Shown: piece by piece, positions 48,346 through 62,576 of the stretch
How the letters are laid out: each line of letters starts with the position of its first letter
How positions within the stretch are numbered: position 1 is the stretch's first letter
Assembly: GCA_030018135.1 (NCBI GenBank)
Contig: JASEGJ010000003.1
Span: forward strand, 27,083-91,082
Source: Candidatus Hodarchaeaceae archaeon
GTDB lineage: Archaea > Hadarchaeota > Hadarchaeia > Hadarchaeales > Hadarchaeaceae
DNA: 64,000 nt
Direction: 5' to 3'
The notes under the pieces: generated by a model
What the model was told of the DNA's origin: nothing
The model's input: only the letters and a program-made list of their open reading frames with translations
Database searches by the model: none
Made by a program: the position numbers and the translations under genes

Positions 48346-50172
48346 GTGTTTGGCTACAAGGGCAAGCTGTTGCGCGTCGATCTAACGGAGGGCTCGCTCG
48401 AGGAGCGCCCCACGTCCGAGCAGCTCGCCCGCGCCTTCCTGGGCGGCCGCGGCTTGGGGGCGGCGCTGCTGTACAAGGAGCTGGAGCGAGGCGTCGACCC
48501 CCTCTCCCCGAAAAATGTCTTGATATTCATGACCGGCCCGGCAGTCGGCACGCCGCTGCCAGCCTGCCCCCGCTGGGAGGTCGTCACCAAATCTCCGCTC
48601 ACGAGCATGTATTGCTGCGGCTCGGTCGGCGGGTTCTTCGGCGCGGAGCTGAAGTTCGCTGGCTACGACGGGATAATCGTGCGGGGCAAGGCGGCCAACC
48701 CCACCTACTTGGCGATAATCGACGGCAGGGCCGAGCTGCGCGATGCGGGCAAACTCTGGGGGATGAACACCGACGAGGTCGAGGCGGCGCTCCGCAAGGA
48801 ACTCAAGGACAGCCGCGCGCGCGTCGCAAGCATCGGCCCGGCGGGCGAGAACTTGGTCAAGATCGCGAGCATTCAGGCGGACCTCCGGTCGGCGGGACGC
48901 GGAGGCCCTGGCGCGGTGATGGGGTCGAAGCTGCTCAAGGCGATCGCCGTCAGGGGGCATGAAAGGATAGAGGTGGCCGACGAGGACGGACTGATGGCGC
49001 TCACCCGCGAGCTTGTTTCGAGCATGAAGGAGAGCCGGGCGGTTCAGAACTTCTCCAGGTGGGGAACGCCGCAGTTCGTCGACCCGGTCAACGAGGGAGG
49101 CCTCTGGCCGACCAGGAACTTTCGGGAGGGCTCCTTCGAGGGGGCGAGGCGCTTGAACGCCGAGAGCATGCGCGAGCGCCTGGTGAAGCGCGACACCGCC
49201 TGCTATGCGTGCCCCATAGCGTGCGGCAAGCTGAGCGTGGTCGGCGATGGCCCATACGCGGGCGTCGTGGTCGAGGGCCCGGATTACGAGACGCTCTGGG
49301 CCTTCGGCGCGCAGTGCGGCGTGGATCGCCTCGATGCGATCGCCGCGGCGAACCTGTGGTGCGACCGCTATGGCATCGATACGATTTCCGCGGGCAACGC
49401 GATCGGCTTCGCCATGGAGTGCTTCGAGCACGGCCTGCTGACCTCGAGCGACACGGGCGGGCTGGATCTGAAGTTCGGCAATCACGAGGTCTTCGTCGAA
49501 CTCCTGCGCAGGATCGCGTTTCGGGAGGGCATTGGCGACCTGCTCGCGGAGGGTGTCCGCGCGGCGGCTGAACGGATGGGGAGGGGCGCGGAGAAATTCG
49601 CTATGCACGTAAAGGGCCTGGAGCTGCCGGCGTACGACCCGAGGGGCGCGTGGGGCATGGCCTTGGCGTATGCCACGGCATGTCGCGGCGGCTGTCATCT
49701 CAAGGCCTGGACCCTCGCGGCGGAGGTGTTCGAGGCGAGGTACGACCGCTTCTCGAGCGAGGGAAAGGCGAAGCTGGTGTTCGACCTCCAGAACATACGC
49801 GCCGCGGTGGATTCGATAGGCGTGTGCGTCATAGGCAGCCGCGCGATGGGCGTGCGGGAGATGGCGAGGGTGATGACGGTCACGACCGGCTGGAGCTTTA
49901 AAGCCGACGACATAACCAAGGCGGGCGAGCGGATCTACAACCTCGAGCGCCTGCTAGCCGTGCGGGACGGCATCTCGCGCGAGGACGACACCCTGCCGCC
50001 GAGGCTGTTGAACGAGACCCTGCCCCATGGCCCGTGCAAGGGCATCGCGCTCCGAGGGGAGGACCTCGATCGCATGCTCGATGAGTACTACGCGCTGCGC
50101 GGGTGGGATCGCCGCGGCAGGCCAAAAAAAGATAAGATAGAAGAACTCGGGATAACCAAGTTGCTGGGGTAG
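48346..50172 (+). CDS. Second aldehyde:ferredoxin oxidoreductase
   Basis: A 608-residue AOR-family enzyme with a GTG start. Key blocks are KLLRVDLTEG, FMTGPAVGTPLPACPRW, GGFFGAELKFAGYDGIIV and the cluster motif CYACPIACG with C286, C289 and C293. It differs from the AOR at 34719 in its substrate-loop sequences, and it has no ferredoxin or MoaD gene beside it. It is GC-rich like the next gene. It probably oxidises another aldehyde with ferredoxin as acceptor. Confidence 0.93.
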   Translation: MFGYKGKLLRVDLTEGSLEERPTSEQLARAFLGGRGLGAALLYKELERGVDPLSPKNVLIFMTGPAVGTPLPACPRWEVVTKSPLTSMYCCGSVGGFFGAELKFAGYDGIIVRGKAANPTYLAIIDGRAELRDAGKLWGMNTDEVEAALRKELKDSRARVASIGPAGENLVKIASIQADLRSAGRGGPGAVMGSKLLKAIAVRGHERIEVADEDGLMALTRELVSSMKESRAVQNFSRWGTPQFVDPVNEGGLWPTRNFREGSFEGARRLNAESMRERLVKRDTACYACPIACGKLSVVGDGPYAGVVVEGPDYETLWAFGAQCGVDRLDAIAAANLWCDRYGIDTISAGNAIGFAMECFEHGLLTSSDTGGLDLKFGNHEVFVELLRRIAFREGIGDLLAEGVRAAAERMGRGAEKFAMHVKGLELPAYDPRGAWGMALAYATACRGGCHLKAWTLAAEVFEARYDRFSSEGKAKLVFDLQNIRAAVDSIGVCVIGSRAMGVREMARVMTVTTGWSFKADDITKAGERIYNLERLLAVRDGISREDDTLPPRLLNETLPHGPCKGIALRGEDLDRMLDEYYALRGWDRRGRPKKDKIEELGITKLLG

Positions 50173-50176
50173 TGAC

Positions 50177-51535
50177 ATGCGCGACAAGAGGCTCTTCGGC
50201 ACGAGGGGCATCAGGGGGCCGATAGCCACGAAGGTCACGCCCGAGCTGATGCTGAAGCTTGGGCTGGCCCTGGCGACCCATGTCGGGGAGGGGGAAATAG
50301 TGGTGGGGCGCGACACCCGCACATCGGGCGAGATGTTGCAGCACGCGTTCATGGCAGGGGTGCTGGCGGGCGGCTGCGATGTCGTGGACATAGGTCTGGC
50401 TCCCTCGCCGTGCGTCGCGTTCACGACCAAGGAGCTAGGCGCCAAGGCTGGGGCGATCATAACCGCCTCGCACAATCCCCCGCCGGACAACGGCGTCGCT
50501 TTCTACGGCGCGGACGGCATGGAGTACCTGCCGAGCCAGGAGCTCGACATCGAGGACCTGGTGTTGAACGAGAAGCTCAAGCTCGCCGGCTGGGACTCTC
50601 TGGGGAGGGTGCGGAGCTACCCTCGCGCGACCTCGCGCTATATCGAAGCCATCAAGAGGGCGGTCAAGGTCAAGCGCGGCTTCAAGGTCGTCGTCGACTG
50701 CGCCAACGGCTCCGGCTCGGTGGTCACGCCCTACCTGCTCCGCGAGCTGGGCTGCAAGGTCATGACGCTCAACTCCCATCCAGATGGCCATTTCCCCGGG
50801 CGGGCGGTGGAGCCGCAGCCCTGGAACCTCGGCGACCTGATGAACACGGTGCGCGAGGTCGGAGCCGATGCCGGCTTTGCGCACGACGGCGACGCGGACC
50901 GCTTCGCGGCCGTCGATGAAAACGGCAAGTTCATAAAGCACGATGCCCTCATCGCGTTGTTCGCGAGGCTGGCGGTCGGGGCCGAGAAGGGGGGAAAGGT
51001 GGTCACGAGCATCAACACCTCCGTCGCGATAGAGGAGGTCGTCGCGGAGGCGGGCGGCCGCACGATCCGAACCGCGCTCGGCGACATACACGCGGCGATG
51101 CTCGAGCACGGCGCGATATTTGCGGGGGAGCCGGGCAAGATCATCTTCCCGGAGTTCGGCAGGTGGATAGACGGCGTGTACGGCGTCGCGAAGATGTTGG
51201 AGCTGATGTCGCTGGAGGGGAAGCCGCTCTCGAGGATCGTCGCGAGCGTGCCGGACTACCCCATGTACCACGAGGACTTTTCATGCCCCGACGAGCGCAA
51301 GGCCGGCTTCATGGAGAACATCCGCAAGTACATGCTCGAGGAGGTGGACGGGATACGCGATATCCTGGACATCGATGGCCTGCGCGTCAACCGCAAGGAT
51401 GGAAGCTGGTTGCTCATCCGGGTGTCGGGGACCGAGCCAAAGGCCAGGATGGTACTCGAGGGCAGGACGCGGGCCGGGGCCGAGAGGCTCAGGGATATCG
51501 GCCTCAGGGGCATCAAAAAGTTCTTGAAGCAATGA
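50177..51535 (+). CDS. glmM: Phosphohexomutase (phosphoglucosamine/phosphomannomutase)
   Basis: A 452-residue alpha-D-phosphohexomutase starting 4 bp after the AOR stop. The phosphoserine loop is TASHNPPPDNG, the Mg2+ loop is AHDGDADRF, the sugar-binding loop is FAGEPGKIIFPEF-like and the phosphate-binding loop is RVSGTEPKARM. Archaeal homologs act on phosphoglucosamine, phosphomannose or phosphoglucose; the sugar cannot be fixed from sequence. The strong GC bias matches the AOR upstream. Confidence 0.9.
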   Translation: MRDKRLFGTRGIRGPIATKVTPELMLKLGLALATHVGEGEIVVGRDTRTSGEMLQHAFMAGVLAGGCDVVDIGLAPSPCVAFTTKELGAKAGAIITASHNPPPDNGVAFYGADGMEYLPSQELDIEDLVLNEKLKLAGWDSLGRVRSYPRATSRYIEAIKRAVKVKRGFKVVVDCANGSGSVVTPYLLRELGCKVMTLNSHPDGHFPGRAVEPQPWNLGDLMNTVREVGADAGFAHDGDADRFAAVDENGKFIKHDALIALFARLAVGAEKGGKVVTSINTSVAIEEVVAEAGGRTIRTALGDIHAAMLEHGAIFAGEPGKIIFPEFGRWIDGVYGVAKMLELMSLEGKPLSRIVASVPDYPMYHEDFSCPDERKAGFMENIRKYMLEEVDGIRDILDIDGLRVNRKDGSWLLIRVSGTEPKARMVLEGRTRAGAERLRDIGLRGIKKFLKQ

Positions 51536-52048: not shown

Positions 52049-52087
52049 AAATTAATAATCGATAGAACCTCGTTGTTATTGGGAGAA

Positions 52088-55000
52088 ATGCAAATGGAGC
52101 GCGAGGCCAAACTTCAAGACGATCTTAAAAACCTAATCGAAACGGTGACAAAAGAGCGCAGGTTTCACGGGGTTGAGATAACCCACGTTGAGTGGAATTA
52201 CCCCGTAGATGGCAGGGAGGCGGACCTCGTGATCTTCATGCGGGGCGAAATTCCCTTCATGTTTATCGAAACCAAGCGAAAAGTTGGCAGGGGCGCCCTA
52301 TTTGATCCCTTGGATGCTTCGGTTGTCGGCCAGGTGATGAGTTACGCCGCGCTCTGGAAACGTTCACATCCGGAGCACGAAATCCCGTTTGTCGCCACGG
52401 CAAATCCTGAATCCATCGCGATTTTCAAAGTCCCCAAAAATATCGAGGAGTACATCGACCGAACCGCCTTGATGAAAAGGGACTACAGGGGCGCCATCAA
52501 GCGGAAGTACCTTTCCATAATCGAGAACCAGATGGTGGGCAAACTCCAGAGACTTTCGTTAACAAGGGAATTTATCGACTATTTGCTCGACAGGCTTGCC
52601 GAAGAATACGCCGGGAAAAGGATAACCAAGCCCGAGCCAAGCGAGGCCATGATAGAGAGGTTCAGGGGATTTGTCAAAACCGTGGCTGATAAGTGCCTAC
52701 CCCTTCTGGAATCGAAGTTAAAAGAAGATGGAATTTTCAGGGGAGAGATAGAAAAACTTGGATACAAGGCGGAGCCCGATGTCCTACCTCAAACCGCGAG
52801 AAATCTGGCGCGTATGATGGCATACGTGCTCATGAACAAACTCATTTTTCGTAAAGTGCTGGAAAAAGTTACAGGTTGCCTCCGATGGTTTTGCTCGATT
52901 CGTCCTCGCTGGTTAGGTTCAGGGAGGATTTGAAGCGTAATTTCGACGGGGCCGTTGAGGTAACCCAAGATTTCGAGCCCATCTTCCGTACTGGAGTGTA
53001 CGATCAAATTCCAATCCCAGATGATCCGGGGCTGATGGAGTACATCAACGACTTCATCTATGACCTCGAAAGCGTCGATGTTGTCAAAATCGGGGACCAG
53101 ATAGGGTACATGTACGAGGTGCTCATCCCGCCCGAGGAGAGGCACCAACTCGGTCAGTTCTATACGCCGCCGTGGGTTTGCGAACTCATAACTCGCTGGT
53201 GTATCAGAAGCCCGGAGGATGTGGTTTTGGACCCGGGCGTCGGCAGCGGGGGCTTTCTCCTGCAGGCTTACAAAAGGCTTCAGGAGAAGAAGATCGGCCC
53301 CAGCGTGATTTCGGTTGTGCGTTCAGAAATTCATGAGAGGATTTTGAGCCAACTTTACGCTCTGGACCTAAACCCGTTCCCGTCCCATCTTTCTGCCATG
53401 GGGGTCTCTATCAAGAACATCAAGGTCCCATCCACGAAATTGAACGTGCTGGTGTCAGACTTCTTCGCACTGCAACCAGGACAAAAAGTTTTGAGCCCAC
53501 AAGGTGAAGACGATTGTTCGGGAGGAAGAGCGCGAGATCGTTATGCCGAAATTCGATGTTGTGGTCGGGAATCCACCGTACACGAGGTGGACCGAGATCC
53601 ACGATGAGACGCAGGGGTTGATCAGAAAACGCCTAGGAAATCTAATGAGGAGGTACGGATTAACCCCACAAGTTTCTCGCGGGGTAGAGCCCGGCATCTA
53701 CACCTACTGGATAATGCACGCCACCGACTTCCTGAAAGAGGACGGAAGGCTGGGGATGATAATCTCGAACACATGGCTCCAGACGGACTATGGGATCGGT
53801 TTTGGGAGCTTTCTTCTGGACAACTTCAGGATAAAGGCGATAATAGACACGGCTCTCAAACTTTTCAAGGATGCCCTGGTGACAACGTGTATAGTGCTCG
53901 CTGAAAGGGAGTCAGACGAGGCAAAGAGATTGGAGAATGAAGTTGTTTTTATCCACATCCCGGGCGAGGTCAAAAGCGCGGATGTGGGCAGGCTTTTGAG
54001 AGCCGTTGAAACTGGAAGTTCAGATGATTATACCGTAACGGTGGTGAAACAGAAAGAATTGCCTAGGGACCGAAAATGGATAGACATTTTCTTCAAGACC
54101 GTGGATATTTCAAAACACCCACTTATGACAAAACTCGGCGAACTTTTCGAGCCGCTGAGAGGAAACACAGTTTGGGCTGAATGGTCTATCTCTCACGGGA
54201 GAAGACCAGACCCCGGTAGTAGCGACTTCACTTATTTGTCGCCATCAAAAATTAAAGAGTTTAACCTCGATAAGTGGGCTTACCCAAATGTCCCGTTAAA
54301 GGATGCCTTGGTTTACCCTGCCATAACCAGCGCTAGGCAGACGAACTACTTTACATTCACCGAGGAGGACTGGGAGGAGATGCGCGGATCCGACGATAGG
54401 TGTTACATGTTCGTGTGCCATGTGCCTAGGAAAAAGCTCCCCAAGGAGATGGCGGACTACGTCAAGTGGGGCGAGACCGAGTGCATGACGAGAATAAGGG
54501 GAACTAGGAAAGGTGGGAGGCTGGCAAGCGAGACAGAGGCGGCAAAAACTAGGGCAAATGAGCCAAAGCGATTTCACGGCTGGTACGATTTGGGCGGAGT
54601 AATCCCAGCACCCATATTCGCCATCCGCCAAGCATGGTATAAGACTAGGTTTACGTGGTGCAGGTTTCCAGTAACTATGTATGACGCACTAATAGCCCTT
54701 GCACCCAAAAAGAGTGTTTCTCTCGATGAGGCCCAGACTAAGGCACTTCTAGCTTATCTCAATTCAAGCTTTGCACAGGCTTACATCGAAACTGATGGCA
54801 GGAAAAGTCCTGGGGGGATAATAGGCTTCGAGGTGAACATAGCCAGAGAGATGCCCGTTCTAGATGTAAGGAAATTGAACAATAAACAACTGAACTCGCT
54901 GGCCAAGCTTTTCGACAAGCTGGAGCACGAGGCGAGGAAAATCGGTGGCGCTTCTCGCAGAGAGGAGATCGAGAAGCTTAAGCCAAAGATATACGAGATC

Positions 55001-55114
55001 GACCGCGCCGTGGCCTCGCTCTTGAGCATCAAGGATGAAGATGTCAAAAATGTGCAGGCCCAGGTAGATTTGATGGTAGAGAGGAGGGTCAGTGTGGCGA
55101 AGAAGGCCCGCTAA
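52088..55114 (+). pseudogene. Type IIG/Eco57I-like restriction-modification enzyme, two frameshifts
   Basis: Three consecutive frames together form one protein of about 1,000 residues. The first has a PD-(D/E)xK-type nuclease motif, READLVIF then FIETKRK. The second carries QFYTPPWVCELIT and SAM motif I, DPGVGSGGFLLQAYK. The third has motif IV, VVVGNPPYTRW, plus a target-recognition region and a C-terminal coiled-coil part. The breaks are near 52866 (A5 run; reading goes from LEKVTG into SYRLPPMVLL) and between 53495 and 53520. The shifts are opposite, so the end frame equals the first. It is inactive unless rescued by frameshifting or phase variation. Confidence 0.85.
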
Positions 55115-55317: not shown

Positions 55318-55330
55318 TTATATTTTTATT
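55318..55330 (+). promoter_or_regulatory. TATA-like promoter of the thiolase operon
   Basis: TTATATTTTTATT lies about 30-40 bp before the ATG at 55359. That is the spacing expected for a short-leader archaeal transcript, and it supports the chosen start over an open frame running back to 55242. Confidence 0.55.
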
Positions 55331-55358: not shown

Positions 55359-56504
55359 ATGGAAGTGGGAATCGTCTCCTACGGACATACAAAATTTGGC
55401 GTGTTGGAGGAGGATACCCCGGATCTCATCAAGAAGGCCATAGAAGGTTGTTTGAATAACGTTGAGAAGGGCATTTCTCCCAAAGAGATAGAATGCATTA
55501 TCGTGAGCTGCGTCGACAACGCCTTTTCCGAGCAGCATCAAACTGGGACGTTGGCGTGGGAATACTTGGGAAACCCAGACGCTTACGGCTTCAAGGTTGA
55601 ATCGGCCTGCGTGAGCGGGAGCATGGCAATATATCAAGGCAGGAAGATGATCGAGGCGGGGATGGCGAAGAACGTTCTCATCGTCGGTTTTGAAAAGATG
55701 AACAAGTTTCCCACAGATAAGGTCACGGAGATTTTGACCCACGGATCCTCCCCCGAGGAGAGGAGGTACGGCATAACCCAGCCCGGTGCTTACGCCTTGC
55801 TGATAAGGCTGTACGCCCAGAAGTATGATGTCACTGAGAGGGACTGGGCGGAGATATCGGTGAAGAACCACAAAAACGCGCTCAGAAACCCGTGGGCCCA
55901 CCTCCAAAAGGACATCACGGTCGAGCAGGTGATGAACTCGAGGATGATAGCCGATCCGATCAGGTTGTTCCATTGCTCCACGATCAGCGACGGTGCGGCC
56001 TCCATTTTGCTGAGCGCGGATCCGAGGAAGTACACCGACACGCCTGTCTTTATCAAGGGGATGGGCGTGGCCCACGATTACATGTCGGTGATCGATAGGG
56101 AGGACCCGACGGTGTTGCTCTGCTCGAAAAGGGCCGCTGATCAGGCCTACAAAGAAGCGGGAAAGACCCCAAAGGACATAAGCCTCGCGGAGGTCCACGA
56201 CGCCTTTACTCCTGTCGAGCCCATGTGTTATGAAGCCGTAGGTTTTGCCGAGAAGGGTGAAGGCTCCAAGTTGGTCAGGGAGGGGGTGGTCATGTTCGAC
56301 GGATCCCTCCCGGTGAACGTGAGCGGTGGACTCAAGGCCAAAGGACACCCCGTGGGCGCCACACATGTGGGAACCATGGTGGAGATGTTCCTGCAACTCA
56401 GGGGAGAGGCCGATAAGAGGCAGGTTCCGGATGCAGAAACCGCCCTGATCGAGGGACACGGCGGAACCGGCTCCGTCGCGGTGGTCTCGATATTGGGGAG
56501 ATGA
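55359..56504 (+). CDS. Thiolase-domain acyl-CoA acetyltransferase
   Basis: A 381-residue SCP-x/COG0183-like thiolase. The family start is MEVGIVSYGHTKFG, so the start at 55359 is preferred to the longer frame. The nucleophile is C84 in VESACVSGSMAI. The His and His/Gly motifs are AEVHDAFTPVEP and SGGLKAKGHPVGATH. It claisen-condenses or cleaves acyl-CoA; an acyl chain cannot be specified. The next gene overlaps its stop (ATGA) and holds a DUF35-like OB domain, the usual thiolase partner. Confidence 0.88.
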   Translation: MEVGIVSYGHTKFGVLEEDTPDLIKKAIEGCLNNVEKGISPKEIECIIVSCVDNAFSEQHQTGTLAWEYLGNPDAYGFKVESACVSGSMAIYQGRKMIEAGMAKNVLIVGFEKMNKFPTDKVTEILTHGSSPEERRYGITQPGAYALLIRLYAQKYDVTERDWAEISVKNHKNALRNPWAHLQKDITVEQVMNSRMIADPIRLFHCSTISDGAASILLSADPRKYTDTPVFIKGMGVAHDYMSVIDREDPTVLLCSKRAADQAYKEAGKTPKDISLAEVHDAFTPVEPMCYEAVGFAEKGEGSKLVREGVVMFDGSLPVNVSGGLKAKGHPVGATHVGTMVEMFLQLRGEADKRQVPDAETALIEGHGGTGSVAVVSILGR

Positions 56505-57466
56505 AAATGAAGGCAAAATTGATTAGTTACACGGATGTGGCCGTTCCCACGCCACCTTATAGGACATCAACGAAGTCCGGGATTGTCGAGGACGAGGAAG
56601 GAAAGCGTTTGTTGGTCAGAATAGAGGATGAGTACTATCCTATTTTGAAGATAGGGATGGAGGGCGAAGTCGAGGAGAGGAGGACCGACTTCGGGACCTT
56701 CAACTTCTTCATTCCGGCAGTCAAGAAGGAAGAAAAGAGAAAGGTTGCCATCGTCACTGGAGCCAGCAGGGGGATAGGAAAGGCGATCGCTTTTGAACTC
56801 GCCCGAAGCGGATTTGATGTCGTGATAAGCGATATCGAAAAAGCGGATGAGTGCGAAGAAAACATGAAAAGGATAAAAGAACTGGGCAGGGAATCGATTT
56901 TCGTTAAAGCCGATGTTTCGGATTTCAATCAGGTCGAGAATATGGTAAAGGAAACGGTCGAGAAATTCGGGCGCGTCGACGTTCTGATAAATAACGCCGG
57001 GCTAAATATCGACAAGCTGGTCACCACCATGACCCTTGAGCAATGGCAAAAAGTCATCGACGTGGACTTAAACGGAGTTTTCAATTGCACGAAGGCCATT
57101 CTTCCCTACATGATCCAGCAAGGCGGGGGCAGGATAGTGAACGTTAGCTCCATGAGCGCCCTCGATGGGGCAGTGGGGCAGGCGAATTACGCGGCCGCAA
57201 AGGGAGGGATTATCTCGTTTACGAAGGTGATAGCGAAGGAGTACGCGCAGTACAACATACTCTGCAACGCGATAGCACCAGGATTCATAAGGACCAGAAT
57301 GACCGATGCAATGCCGCCCGGTTTGTTCCGGGATAGATTGGCGCGAAATCCTCTCGGGAGGAGGGGAGAACCGGAGGAAGTCGCGAAGCTGGTAAGGTTT
57401 CTTGTCACCGAAGGGGATTACATAACCGGCCAAGTGATAGGCATAAACGCCGGGGAATATGTTTGA
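56501..57466 (+). CDS. Fusion of DUF35-like OB domain and FabG/PhaB-type SDR
   Basis: A 321-residue protein. Residues 1-75 look like the C-terminal OB fold of DUF35 acyl-CoA partners (AKLISYTDVAVPTPPY and YYPILKIGMEGEVEERRTDF) but with no zinc ribbon. Residues 80-321 are a complete short-chain dehydrogenase: TGASRGIG (86-93), NNAG, the Ser of VNVSSMSAL and the YxxxK in ANYAAAKGG. PGFIRTRM and TGQVIGINAGEYV complete it. The SDR is of the 3-oxoacyl reductase kind. It is coupled to the thiolase by 4 bp overlap; fusing the two partners is unusual. Confidence 0.88.
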   Translation: MKMKAKLISYTDVAVPTPPYRTSTKSGIVEDEEGKRLLVRIEDEYYPILKIGMEGEVEERRTDFGTFNFFIPAVKKEEKRKVAIVTGASRGIGKAIAFELARSGFDVVISDIEKADECEENMKRIKELGRESIFVKADVSDFNQVENMVKETVEKFGRVDVLINNAGLNIDKLVTTMTLEQWQKVIDVDLNGVFNCTKAILPYMIQQGGGRIVNVSSMSALDGAVGQANYAAAKGGIISFTKVIAKEYAQYNILCNAIAPGFIRTRMTDAMPPGLFRDRLARNPLGRRGEPEEVAKLVRFLVTEGDYITGQVIGINAGEYV

Positions 57467-57495
57467 ACGGCAAAAGGTGAAGGCCGGGGTCGAAG

Positions 57496-59049
57496 ATGAA
57501 GGTAGTTGCGAGCGAGGAAGCTGTAGGTCGCATAAAAAATGGGGATACGGTCGCAACTGGCGGTTTCACAACGACCAACCTTCCGTGGGAACTCTTCCAC
57601 GCGTTGAGGAACAGATTTCTCAAAACGGGCAAACCGAGAGACCTAACGATCATACAGCCCGCGGGCCAATCTGGAGGTAAAGGAGTCGGATTCGATCTCT
57701 TGGGCATCGAAGGCCTTATTAAAAAAATGATATTCACCCACTCCGGAAAGGCTCCGATGACAAGCGATTTGATAATGAACAACAAGATCATCGCTTATTG
57801 TCTCCCGCAGGGTGTAATCTCTCAAATGTTCAGGGACATTGCCGCAAAAAAACCATATTTGATAACGCACACGGGCTTGTACACATTCGTGGATCCTCGG
57901 GTCGATGGGGGCAAGGTAAACGATATCACAAAGAAAGAGGAAGACATAGTCAAACTGGTTGAGGTAGACGGCAGGGAATATTTGCTTTATAAAACTTTCC
58001 CGGTAGATTTCGCCCTAATTCGGGGGACGACTTCGGACGAAAAGGGCAACATTTCAATGGAAAAGGAAGGAGTAACCCTCGAAAACCTATCCATAGCTCA
58101 AGCGACGAAAAATTCCGGGGGAACCGTGGCCGTTCAGGTGGAGAAGGTCATCGAAGGACTCTTGCCGGGCAGGACGGTCAAGGTCCCCGGGATTCTTGTG
58201 GATTATGTTGTGATAGCCTCGAAACCCGAGTACGGCTGGCAGACCGTTCGCATATCACACGATCCAGCCATCAGCGGTGAAACGAGAATTCCCCCATCCG
58301 CGGTTGAACCTAGGCCGCTCGACGAGAGAAAGGTCATCGGTAGGAGGGCGGCCATGGAAATAAGACCCGGCGATGTCATAAACCTCGGCATCGGGATGGC
58401 CACGGAGGTCGCCAATGTCGCAATGGAGGAAAACGTCTACGAAGAATTCACGCTGACTGTCGAGTCGGGCGTAACGGGCGGTGTCCCCCTCTCCGCCCTA
58501 GATTTCGGGCTCGGGGTGAACTACGAGGCCCTCATCGATCAACCCTATCAATTCGATTTCTATCAGGGTGGAGGATTGGATTTGGGCTTCCTGGGAATGG
58601 CCCAAGCCGACGAAAAGGGAAACACAAACGTGAGCAAATTCGGTGGAAGGTTTGCAGGTTGCGGCGGTTTTATCGATATCGCCCAGAACGCCAAGAAAGT
58701 CGTCTTTTGCGGGACCTTGACCACGAAGGGCCTTCAGGTGGAAGTCGGAGATGGGAGATTGAAAATTTTGCAGGAGGGATCGGTCAAGAAATTCGTAAAA
58801 AATGTGGAGCACATTACATTTAGCGGCGAGTACGCGAGAAAGCTCGGACAAGAAGTTTTGTACGTCACCGAAAGGGCCGTTTTCAGGCTCGGTAGGGATG
58901 GCATGATGTTGGAGGAAATCGCGCCCGGAGTCGATCTAAAGAAGGACGTCCTTGACAAGATGGAATTTTCTCCAATCGTCTCGGATGAACTTAGGACTAT
59001 GGACGAAAAAATATTCAAAAAGGAGAAAATAGGAATTCTACTGACCTAG
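57496..59049 (+). CDS. Acetate/propionate-type CoA-transferase
   Basis: A 517-residue family I CoA-transferase carrying both halves in one chain, like YdiF/propionate CoA-transferase. The catalytic Glu is E323 in TVESGVTGG. GDTVATGGFTTTNLPWELFH begins the first half, IRPGDVINLGIGMATEVA begins the second. It swaps CoA between short carboxylates and acyl-CoA. With the thiolase and reductase it suggests a four-carbon or longer hydroxyacyl-CoA route, but direction and substrate are open. Confidence 0.9.
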   Translation: MKVVASEEAVGRIKNGDTVATGGFTTTNLPWELFHALRNRFLKTGKPRDLTIIQPAGQSGGKGVGFDLLGIEGLIKKMIFTHSGKAPMTSDLIMNNKIIAYCLPQGVISQMFRDIAAKKPYLITHTGLYTFVDPRVDGGKVNDITKKEEDIVKLVEVDGREYLLYKTFPVDFALIRGTTSDEKGNISMEKEGVTLENLSIAQATKNSGGTVAVQVEKVIEGLLPGRTVKVPGILVDYVVIASKPEYGWQTVRISHDPAISGETRIPPSAVEPRPLDERKVIGRRAAMEIRPGDVINLGIGMATEVANVAMEENVYEEFTLTVESGVTGGVPLSALDFGLGVNYEALIDQPYQFDFYQGGGLDLGFLGMAQADEKGNTNVSKFGGRFAGCGGFIDIAQNAKKVVFCGTLTTKGLQVEVGDGRLKILQEGSVKKFVKNVEHITFSGEYARKLGQEVLYVTERAVFRLGRDGMMLEEIAPGVDLKKDVLDKMEFSPIVSDELRTMDEKIFKKEKIGILLT

Positions 59050-59127: not shown

Positions 59128-60507
59128 GTGTTAGTCAAAAATGAAAGGCAATTACTTGAAAGAGCCAAGACCCCGGAGCTTCGGAAAGCGAGGGGCATTC
59201 TCATTGAGATAGTGAATAGGGCAATTTCCTCTGCTGACCCGTCTTCTGCGATGCGCCGTCGGTTGAGGTTGGTTGAGGGACGCTTGAGGGTCGGGGCTCA
59301 CGAGTTTGACCTCTCGGAGGTTGGAAAGATCATCGTGGTGGGTGGCGGAAAGGCGAGCGGGAACATGGCCGAGGTGCTAGAGGAAATACTCGGAGATAGG
59401 ATAACGGGAGGCGTGGTCAACGTCCCGGAGGGCGCGGCGTCGAGATGCGAAACGCGAAAGATCAAGCTCGTCGAAGCTGGCCACCCCCTCCCAACCGAGG
59501 CGGGAGTAGGGGGCGCCGAAGAGATGATAGATCTAGTTAGCGACCTCGAGCCACAGGACCTCGTTATATGTCTCCTGAGTGGGGGTGGCTCGGCCCTCGT
59601 CACCCTCCCCGCGGAAGGGATTTCTCTGGATGAGCTGCGGGAGACGACCCAACTGCTCCTCAAAAGCGGGGCGACTATTCAAGAGGTGAACGCCGTCAGG
59701 AAACACCTCTCTAGGATAAAAGGTGGCCAGCTGGCCAAAGCGGCCTATCCCGCGAAGGTCATCACCTTGCTCATTTCGGATGTGGTTGGCGACAGACTGG
59801 ACACAATCGCGAGCGGCCCGACCTATCCCGATTCGACAACATATTCGGACGCGTTGGCGGTGATTGAAAGATATGAGATACTCAAAAAGGTGCCTGTGAG
59901 CATTTTAAGGCACCTGAGATTGGGGGCAGAAGGGAAGGTACCCGAGACCCCAAAACCTGGTGAGAAATATTTTCTGAACACGCTCCACGAGGTCATAGCG
60001 AGCAACGCGGATGCGGTCGGGGCGGCTGCGGAAGTCGGGAGATCGCACGGCTTCAACGTCTCGGTGCTCACGGCGACCATGCACGGCGAGGCGCGTGAGG
60101 TCGGAGCGCATCTCGCAGCCGTCGCGAAAGATGTGATGGAGACAGGCAAACCCGTATCAAGGCCCGCGCTTCTGATCTCTGGAGGGGAGACGACGGTGAC
60201 GGTAAAGGGCGAGGGTACGGGTGGGCGAAATCAGGAGCTCGCGCTCAGCGCCGCTATAGGGATATCGGGCTTGAGGAACGTGGCCGTGGCTTCATTCAGC
60301 ACCGATGGAATAGACGGCCCGACTGATGCTGCTGGAGCTGTCGTGGATGGATTCACCATCGAAAGGGCAAGGCATCTCATGCTTGATCCCGTGGCTTATC
60401 TCGAGCGGAATGACTCCTACAGCTTCTTCAAGGGGCTTGAGGACCTCTTGGTAACTGGGCCCACAGGGACGAATGTTATGGATGTAACGTGCTTGATCCT
60501 GATCTGA
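59128..60507 (+). CDS. gck: Glycerate 2-kinase (MOFRL family)
   Basis: A 459-residue GckA/MOFRL-type kinase with a GTG start. It phosphorylates glycerate to 2-phosphoglycerate. IIVVGGGKASGNMAEVLEEI, LLSGGGSALVTLP and the C-terminal MOFRL block (LISGGETTVTVKGEGTGGRN and STDGIDGPTDAAGAVVDG) are diagnostic. The upstream 78 bp hold a TATA-like CTATTTAACC and TTTAAAAC. Whether it belongs with the CoA pathway or stands alone is unclear. The 280 bp after it contain no supported gene. Confidence 0.93.
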   Translation: MLVKNERQLLERAKTPELRKARGILIEIVNRAISSADPSSAMRRRLRLVEGRLRVGAHEFDLSEVGKIIVVGGGKASGNMAEVLEEILGDRITGGVVNVPEGAASRCETRKIKLVEAGHPLPTEAGVGGAEEMIDLVSDLEPQDLVICLLSGGGSALVTLPAEGISLDELRETTQLLLKSGATIQEVNAVRKHLSRIKGGQLAKAAYPAKVITLLISDVVGDRLDTIASGPTYPDSTTYSDALAVIERYEILKKVPVSILRHLRLGAEGKVPETPKPGEKYFLNTLHEVIASNADAVGAAAEVGRSHGFNVSVLTATMHGEAREVGAHLAAVAKDVMETGKPVSRPALLISGGETTVTVKGEGTGGRNQELALSAAIGISGLRNVAVASFSTDGIDGPTDAAGAVVDGFTIERARHLMLDPVAYLERNDSYSFFKGLEDLLVTGPTGTNVMDVTCLILI

Positions 60508-61629: not shown

Positions 61630-62127
61630 TTAGAGATTCTTGAAACTTTGATGTCGAGCCGGTCGCATGCGAGAGTGGCTTAAATCCCCTCGCAGTTTTA
61701 CCGGTCGATTTCTATAGCTTATCGATGGTTGCAGCACTTTCTCAAACTTTTGCAAGATCTCCTCATCAAATGAAGCCAGCATACATTTCTTTTCAGATGC
61801 GAGCTGGACAATAACGGCATCGGCCCCCCGCAATCCGTACTTGATGGCAATCAACTGCGCCTCATCGGCCCTCTTTTTGTCAAGTTCCTCGATAGTGATG
61901 AATCCACCCTTTGCCCAACTGGTGAATCTCTTCCTTATCCGTTTAGCGTACTTGGGCCCCACGACCCTACCCATGGCCCCGACGACTTCAACCAGTGCCA
62001 GACAACTCACAAAGGCGCGGTACTTGGTCCCGATTTGTTCGATAACCGCATGCGCCTGCCCGTGAAATGGGTCACCAACTTTGAACGCAGCGATGAATAC
62101 GGAGGAGTCTACAACGAGTTCATCCAT
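61630..62127 (-). CDS. vapC: VapC-type PIN-domain toxin
   Basis: A 165-residue PIN ribonuclease. The ATG at 62127 matches the family start MDELVVDSSVFIAAF, with D7 as the first acidic residue. Others lie in LALVEVVG, RGADAVIVQLA and LASFDEEIL. It overlaps the AbrB-like antitoxin gene by 8 bp, the classical VapBC layout. The C-terminal tail after about 140 is longer than typical (about 130 residues) and basic. VapC toxins cleave specific RNAs when not bound by VapB. Confidence 0.9.
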   Translation of the reverse strand: MDELVVDSSVFIAAFKVGDPFHGQAHAVIEQIGTKYRAFVSCLALVEVVGAMGRVVGPKYAKRIRKRFTSWAKGGFITIEELDKKRADEAQLIAIKYGLRGADAVIVQLASEKKCMLASFDEEILQKFEKVLQPSISYRNRPVKLRGDLSHSRMRPARHQSFKNL

Positions 62128-62371
62128 GTTTTCCGCGCTCGCGTCTGACGATTTCAACCGCGGTCATCCCCCTGGGCCACTTGCCTCTTAGCTCTCGTGC
62201 TATTTCCTTTACATCCTCCGCCATCGGCCTCTGTACAGTCAGAAGAATGCCTTTTTGGCTTTCTTTTAACAACAACTTGGTCCCCTTCTCAATCCGATAC
62301 TTTCTCCTCAAAGCTTTGGGGATTACTACCTGCCCTTTGGAGCTGATGCTTACGGTTTTTTCTTCTACCAT
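62120..62371 (-). CDS. vapB: VapB antitoxin, AbrB/SpoVT fold
   Basis: An 83-residue antitoxin starting at the ATG at 62371, following GGGGAG. SISSKGQVVIPKALRRKYRI is the AbrB-type swapped-hairpin DNA-binding signature; the C-terminal part (AEDVKEIARELRGKW) binds the toxin. The gene lies directly upstream of vapC and overlaps it. A promoter-like AAAATTTAAATC (62401-62412) precedes it and may be autoregulated by the complex. Confidence 0.9.
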   Translation of the reverse strand: MVEEKTVSISSKGQVVIPKALRRKYRIEKGTKLLLKESQKGILLTVQRPMAEDVKEIARELRGKWPRGMTAVEIVRRERGKHG

Positions 62372-62576
62372 ACATCTCCCCACTTTTAATAGGTAAGACG
62401 AAAATTTAAATCTTACTAGAACTTACTTCTTACTTCTAAAAGTGCAAACATCAAGCAGTAATTAGACGGCTCCTTCGCCAAAAAAAGGGCTCAAATATTT
62501 TTCAGTTTATGTTTTTTACTGGCGGGCCGGGCGGGATTCATATGAGTTTTGGGGTCGAGTCTCTCCTCTTCAGGTG

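Follow-up and report, generated by a model that had tools for sequence, protein, structure and literature searches.

What does a thiolase do when its usual DUF35 companion gene is replaced and the neighbouring reductase carries a part resembling that companion at its own N-terminus? This question is raised by a locus in a 64,000-nucleotide stretch (the window) of contig JASEGJ010000003.1 from a Candidatus Hodarchaeaceae archaeon of the Hadarchaeota, whose assembly comprises 1.11 Mb and is about 93% complete. Three genes in the same direction are present at 55359-59049 on the forward strand, where an earlier note, made from the sequence alone, had placed them. They encode a thiolase of the SCP2/archaeal type (55359..56504, 381 residues), a protein in which an OB domain is fused to a short-chain dehydrogenase/reductase (OB-SDR, 56501..57466, 321 residues), and a class I CoA-transferase of the fused alpha-beta type similar to YdiF, FadX and Pct (57496..59049, 517 residues). 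We consider it fairly likely that they form a reversible three-enzyme module for short 3-hydroxyacyl-CoA chemistry, with the reductase docked on the thiolase by the OB domain. The thiolase and OB-SDR probably form one working unit whose substrates are short hydroxy acids, for example 3-hydroxybutyrate. The sequences themselves establish the domain identities, the fusion itself, the replacement of a DUF35 gene, the joint inheritance of the two partners, the catalytic residues of the SDR and of the CoA-transferase, and the lack of beta-oxidation enzymes in the family.

The earlier note had read the N-terminus of the reductase as an OB part without a zinc ribbon, a reading that depends on OB/DUF35 similarity in the first 75 residues. 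Such similarity was found. In Pfam, PF01796 (OB_ChsH2_C) matched residues 4-54 with an E-value of 0.0029 for the isolated domain and a score of 18 bits, and NCBIfam gave no match to the OB domain alone. A phmmer search of the domain against PDB sequences returned a single chance match (E 0.46), so a fold search was needed to identify it. Profile comparison by hhalign with four ribbon-bearing archaeal DUF35 proteins gave a probability of 96.6%, with 43% identity over 54 columns, and the probability rose to 97.5% once the fusions of a second phylum (see below) were added to the fusion set. An AlphaFold model limited to the OB domain, built from its own orthologues in an alignment without any DUF35 sequence, has five strands and a predicted local distance difference test score (pLDDT) of 78.9. 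When this model was submitted to Foldseek, ranks 1-5 were all occupied by DUF35 subunits, namely chains 6esq_F/E/G of the thiolase/3-hydroxy-3-methylglutaryl-CoA (HMG-CoA) synthase complex and 6ok1_B/D of Ltp2-ChsH2. VIA-align also placed DUF35 at the top (Z 8.9), with ribosomal OB folds close behind (8.5-8.8), and therefore indicates by itself only an OB fold. The model of the whole fusion, made from six close sequences, was weak (pLDDT 64, with much of the C-terminal part below 50) and was used only for the five N-terminal strands.

The fusion has only three cysteines (118, 196 and 255), all of them in the SDR part; residues 1-117 have none, and hence no zinc ribbon. Consistently, no match to PF12172 was obtained in the fusion, and no ribbon pattern occurs in any of the eight fusion rows. 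Eight OB residues are invariant across the fusions: Pro19, Glu30, Gly34, Gly52, Gly55, Gly65, Phe70 and Pro72. Judged by profile comparison and structure modelling, the N-terminal ~75 residues (residues 1-75, 56501..56725) are a DUF35 domain reduced to its OB half and lacking the zinc ribbon. The proposal of a ribbonless OB part fused to a reductase is thus borne out by the hhalign probabilities, the Foldseek ranks and the positions of the cysteines.

The SDR part (residues 79-321, 56735..57463) is of the FabG/PhaB/(3R)-hydroxyacyl-CoA dehydrogenase type. Pfam adh_short matched it with an E-value of 8e-64, covering residues 81-270 only, and its nearest relatives in the PDB are (3R)-hydroxyacyl-CoA dehydrogenase and FabG. 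The SDR motifs are present: TGxxxGIG, NNAG at 164, Ser216/217, Tyr230 and Lys234. The scores fall below the NCBIfam cut-offs for FabG (TIGR01830, 278.2 of 297.75) and acetoacetyl-CoA reductase (TIGR01829, 236.3 of 302.1), and the only cut-off passed is that of the broad subfamily NF009466 (242.1 of 222). In most SDR rows the second strand ends with an aspartate (VVISD, VINDL); the sequence here is VVISD. Since an aspartate at this place usually goes with NAD(H), the sequence suggests NAD(H) as the cofactor.

A search for the same domain fusion, recommended in the earlier note, revealed it in 7 of the 28 Hadarchaeota genomes searched. A second archaeal phylum (that of genome G052, probably Thermoproteota) has it in 4 of 398 genomes, each time directly after a thiolase. 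The fusion proteins share 71-82% identity within Hadarchaeota and 45-65% with the second phylum; a fusion conserved to this degree is not a product of chance. Two other archaeal phyla, represented by 389 and 392 genomes, yielded no OB-SDR frame at the thresholds used. A contig scan with the whole fusion protein returned only the Hadarchaeota fusions and SDRs without an OB domain; it used exact peptide patterns, which leave room for other fusions. Three further candidates were rejected: an eighth Hadarchaeota match (G022) is an ordinary ribbon-bearing DUF35 protein and not a fusion, a match in G448 (open frame 340) is due to chance, the gene in question looking like a succinyl-CoA ligase, and a 489-residue frame (L142) is an HMG-CoA synthase with an ordinary ribbon-bearing DUF35.

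The relationship between the fusion and the thiolase was analyzed with a tree of 54 thiolases, 8 of them paired with OB-SDR and 46 others. The eight paired thiolases form one clade with a support of 100/100, and the pairing trait requires one change on the tree versus 7.6 in shuffles, with none of the 500 shuffles as low. A gene was assigned to the DUF35 slot when it started between -60 and +120 bases after the thiolase, and a ribbon was defined as CxxC...CxxC. A ribbon-bearing DUF35 gene stands next to the thiolase in 35 of the 46 non-paired cases, so a separate DUF35 protein is the norm, as the earlier note had assumed. In the paired clade this slot is occupied by the OB-SDR gene, which at most overlaps the thiolase by 4 bases and otherwise follows it within a few bases. 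By its position and sequence pattern, the fusion replaces the ribbon-bearing DUF35 gene, and because it takes that gene's place, a thiolase-reductase unit is the natural reading. Across eight loci, the identity of the thiolases tracks that of the OB part with r = 0.94 and that of the SDR part with r = 0.86. A profile of the paired thiolases over the 398 genomes gave 659-720 bits for the four pair-bearing genomes and 423 bits for the next, a gap widened by the inclusion of the four genomes' own thiolases in the profile. Among these 398 genomes, the paired thiolase clade is confined to the four that carry the fusion.

The thiolase matched Thiolase_C_1 (6e-45) and Thiolase_N (2e-23) in Pfam, and 7yvy_A (1.7e-75), 6esq_A (3e-56) and BbsB 7pxp_C (1.9e-44) in the PDB. 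Its nucleophile, Cys84 (ESACVSGS, 55608..55610), is invariant in the eight paired thiolases and aligns with the cysteine of EAACASGS in 6esq. The catalytic His330 of the GHPVG motif (56343..56357) is also invariant in the clade. The active site is altered at two other places. At the HDCF site of SCP2-type thiolases the protein has HDAF (H280 to F283, 56196..56207); HDAF occurs in all eight paired rows, and HDCF in most of the other thiolases compared. The clade also has an invariant histidine, His367 (56457..56459), in a [GN]HGGTG loop, where the nearest non-paired thiolases have Ile, Val, Leu or Met, mostly as N-(I/V/L/M)-G-G-S-G. HDAF is not unique to the clade: 7yvy_A, deposited as an acetyl-CoA acetyltransferase, has it together with NIGGTG. 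The combination of HDAF with an invariant histidine in [GN]HGGTG was not found described in the open-access literature. From the alignment, our guess is that His367 takes over proton transfer from the HDCF cysteine. A bolder idea, possible but doubtful, is that this clade, with a ribbonless OB domain in the next enzyme and acid-base catalysis moved from the HDCF cysteine to the histidine of the [GN]HGGTG loop, would catalyse a direct conversion of acetyl-CoA to 3-hydroxybutyryl-CoA without letting go of acetoacetyl-CoA.

Two other thiolase-like proteins with altered sites were observed. The one at locus L080 (2666-4087, reverse strand) has WGGATG at the nucleophile site, and hence no nucleophile, with HDAY and SHAGTG; it is a second case in which loss of the HDCF cysteine goes together with a histidine in the last loop. 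The other is encoded in the genome of the window itself (L002, G000:C19, 234-1397). It has lost the nucleophile cysteine (VENGPASG), has HDAF, is followed by a ribbon-bearing DUF35 gene, and is probably no longer a thiolase. A thiolase-DUF35 pair of the ordinary archaeal kind is encoded separately in this genome (L001).

The CoA-transferase matched PF01144 (CoA_trans) with an E-value of 3.6e-36 and YdiF (PDB 2ahu) with 1.1e-135; its score for FadX (NF052271) is 464.9 bits, below the equivalog cut-off of 750. In the alignment with YdiF, Glu323 (58462..58464) falls on Glu333, which we take to be the CoA-carrying glutamate of class I enzymes. The CoA transfer that the earlier note had put as the third step fits these matches. 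The gene order thiolase, OB-SDR, CoA-transferase is found in every Hadarchaeal locus with a long enough contig. At the loci of the second phylum, the CoA-transferase was not seen.

Which pathway could such enzymes serve? Hadarchaeota include alkane oxidisers, and beta-oxidation in the phylum is confined to these, the Ca. Cerberiarchaeaceae (PMC10811742), which raises the thought that the module belongs to a beta-oxidation or alkane-oxidation pathway. The alkane oxidisers are, however, another family. Crotonase (PF00378), acyl-CoA dehydrogenase (PF00441) and MaoC (PF01575) were each found in 0 of the 22 genomes of the window's family, and all three are present in family f3 of the same order. 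The absence of the three enzyme types, which agrees with the published confinement of beta-oxidation to the alkane oxidisers and, like the altered active site, had no place in the earlier note, indicates that the pathway is not beta-oxidation and that there is no chain-shortening spiral for the thiolase to serve, so we give this explanation hardly any credence. The same absence bears on the idea that the architecture is as described and acts on another substrate, namely longer, branched or aromatic 3-keto/3-hydroxyacyl-CoA, as BbsAB does in toluene degradation. BbsB is a relative of the thiolase, the bbs system brings together a thiolase, DUF35, an SDR and a CoA-transferase, and a non-standard thiolase active site could serve a different chemistry. 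The family nevertheless lacks the enzymes to make or use such chains, and the CoA-transferase is of the class I YdiF type, which that of bbs is not; we regard another substrate as unlikely.

The altered active site also allows for a "thiolase" that performs a related reaction (acyl transfer, decarboxylative condensation or retro-aldol cleavage), as PhlC, Sal and Ltp2 do, rather than Claisen condensation or thiolysis. The substitution of HDAF for HDCF and the new histidine run through the whole clade, and a cysteine-to-alanine change in the same motif of CtSal abolished its aldolase activity. On the other hand, Cys84, the HD pair and the GHP histidine are kept, 7yvy_A shares HDAF under its deposited acetyltransferase function, and the adjacent gene encodes a reductase for the product of a thiolase. 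An aldolase of the Ltp2/Sal type was ruled out, as the YDHF/YDCY motif with its tyrosine is absent and the nucleophile is retained; a related reaction in general appears improbable to us. Finally, the OB domain could be a relic, or a solubility or oligomer element, on an ordinary FabG-like reductase that adjoins the thiolase by chance. It is indeed the most divergent part of the protein, with 24-52% identity outside the Hadarchaeal rows. It is nonetheless retained in every fusion, each time at the DUF35 position behind one and the same thiolase clade, and with its eight residues from Pro19 to Pro72 invariant, which makes this explanation very improbable.

For the three-enzyme module on short 3-hydroxyacyl-CoA, the simplest route, as no enoyl-CoA enzymes are present, is 2 acetyl-CoA <-> acetoacetyl-CoA <-> 3-hydroxybutyryl-CoA <-> 3-hydroxybutyrate. 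The thiolase would join or cleave two acyl-CoA, most simply two acetyl-CoA and acetoacetyl-CoA. By analogy with known complexes, the OB domain would hold the reductase on the thiolase and do the job of the separate DUF35 subunit. The reductase, with NAD(H) as its probable cofactor, would interconvert acetoacetyl-CoA and (R)-3-hydroxybutyryl-CoA, and the CoA-transferase would swap CoA between 3-hydroxybutyrate (or acetoacetate) and another acyl-CoA, for example acetyl-CoA. This swap would let the cell release the free hydroxy acid as a fermentation product, or import and use it. We infer the complex, its substrate, the direction and any channelling. In the known complex, DUF35 connects thiolase to HMG-CoA synthase, the CoA site is fused and the intermediate is channelled, and hydratase-fused DUF35 domains dock on Sal/Ltp2 (PMC12329534, PMC6392133). 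Channelling, which the earlier note had proposed, does not follow automatically from docking: CtShy-CtSal, a pair tethered by DUF35, let 93% of its intermediate escape (PMC12329534).

The module may run in either direction, as the earlier note had supposed. At two loci, L103 and L105, an alpha/beta-hydrolase lies near the pair, and its best NCBIfam model is an intracellular short-chain polyhydroxyalkanoate (PHA) depolymerase (101.7 and 85.8 bits); at L105 an AMP-forming acyl-CoA ligase stands beside the pair. On the basis of the hydrolase in two genomes and the ligase in one, all of the second phylum, the use of 3-hydroxy acids is weakly and only slightly favoured over their production. At the same two loci, HTH_10 (Bat-like) regulators adjoin the pair (L103 3864-4586, reverse strand; L105 2573-3304, forward strand) and possibly represent a dedicated regulator.

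Several observations weigh against the module as proposed. The hydrolase scores are far below the cut-off of 300 and cover only about 120-130 residues. The Pfam score of the OB domain does not reach the curated PF01796 cut-off of 27.1 bits. The second catalytic cysteine of the thiolase is missing at both known places, HDCF and CxG, so plain thiolase activity is not assured. Synthesis of polyhydroxybutyrate through a class III PhaC was rejected, as PHA synthase of class III (TIGR01836), the only class looked for, had no match in any of the 11 pair-bearing genomes. A class III PHA-synthase-like frame was observed in a genome of the alkane-oxidiser-like family f3 (G024:C15:41763-43126, L137); it scores 315 bits, below the cut-off of 365, and lies ~100 bases before a MaoC hydratase.

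The thiolase gene most probably starts at ATG 55359. This start was preferred over the upstream TTG 55242 because of the AT-rich TTATATTTTTAT at 55318..55329 (forward strand), a possible archaeal TATA box ~30 bases upstream, read by eye and not scored. The overlap of the thiolase and OB-SDR genes described in the earlier note amounts to 4 bases with ATG 56501 as the start of the latter; with the alternative ATG 56507, which is equivalent to the start in the Hadarchaeal orthologues, the overlap gives way to a 2-base gap. The CoA-transferase gene is followed by a glycerate 2-kinase-like gene (59128..60507, forward strand; DUF4147 6.5e-86, MOFRL 6.3e-41), which is also found 3' of the CoA-transferase at three other Hadarchaeal loci (L013, L015 and L016) and probably has a separate function. 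Upstream, three overlapping open reading frames in different frames (52073-52933, 52876-53607 and 53504-55114, forward strand), the last of which matches an Eco57I/N6 methylase, resemble the pieces of a single type IIG-like restriction-modification gene, split by frameshifts or by errors in the assembly. Further genes in the window encode an aldehyde:ferredoxin oxidoreductase and, 4 bases further on, a phosphoglucomutase/phosphomannomutase (48346-51535, forward strand), and overlapping PIN-domain and MazE/AbrB-type proteins, likely a toxin-antitoxin pair (61630-62383, reverse strand).

DUF35 proteins are found with thiolases throughout the archaea; some may serve only as scaffold and others as channel, and a 2025 paper on Sal asks for such cases (PMC12329534). 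A natural OB-only fusion suggests that it is the OB half that docks, and that the zinc ribbon can be lost. The altered active site that goes with it turns the acid-base question into one that single mutations of the thiolase can address. The module also suggests a ketone-body-like metabolism in subsurface archaea without beta-oxidation. The fusion had been called unusual, which holds in part. The 2010 paper on the SSO2064 structure already lists NAD(P)-binding SDR-related Rossmann domains as DUF35 fusion partners, apparently without naming their sequences, neighbours or function, and describes the two-domain architecture of ribbon and OB as conserved in all DUF35 homologues (PMC2954200). The fusion studied here resembles that class in joining a DUF35 homologue to an SDR-related domain and differs from it in the missing ribbon. 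In open-access papers, no description was found of the ribbonless form, or of such a fusion standing in for the DUF35 gene next to a single thiolase clade in two phyla.

The same three reaction types occur in one operon in the PhaA-PhaB-Pct/YdiF pathway for 3-hydroxybutyrate. Here, an SCP2/archaeal-type thiolase stands in place of PhaA, an OB docking domain is present, and no class III PHA synthase was found. BbsAB is a DUF35-thiolase pair clustered with an SDR and a CoA-transferase; it differs in its separate ribbon-bearing DUF35, in its substrate, and in the presence of an acyl-CoA dehydrogenase and a hydratase. The steroid systems ChsH1-ChsH2-Ltp2 and Shy-Sal (6OK1, 9MYR) share with the OB-SDR a docking domain fused to a neighbouring pathway enzyme and a partner with the thiolase fold. 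In them, however, the fused enzyme is a hydratase, the DUF35 zinc finger is kept, the partner is an aldolase with other catalytic residues, and Shy-Sal works without channelling. The archaeal acetoacetyl-CoA thiolase/DUF35/HMG-CoA synthase complex (6ESQ) is alike in its thiolase, in the OB domain of its DUF35 subunit, and in the use of DUF35 as a thiolase partner. There, the DUF35 protein is separate and bears a ribbon, and the next enzyme is HMG-CoA synthase, whereas in the window a ribbonless OB domain is built into a reductase and the thiolase has HDAF for HDCF.

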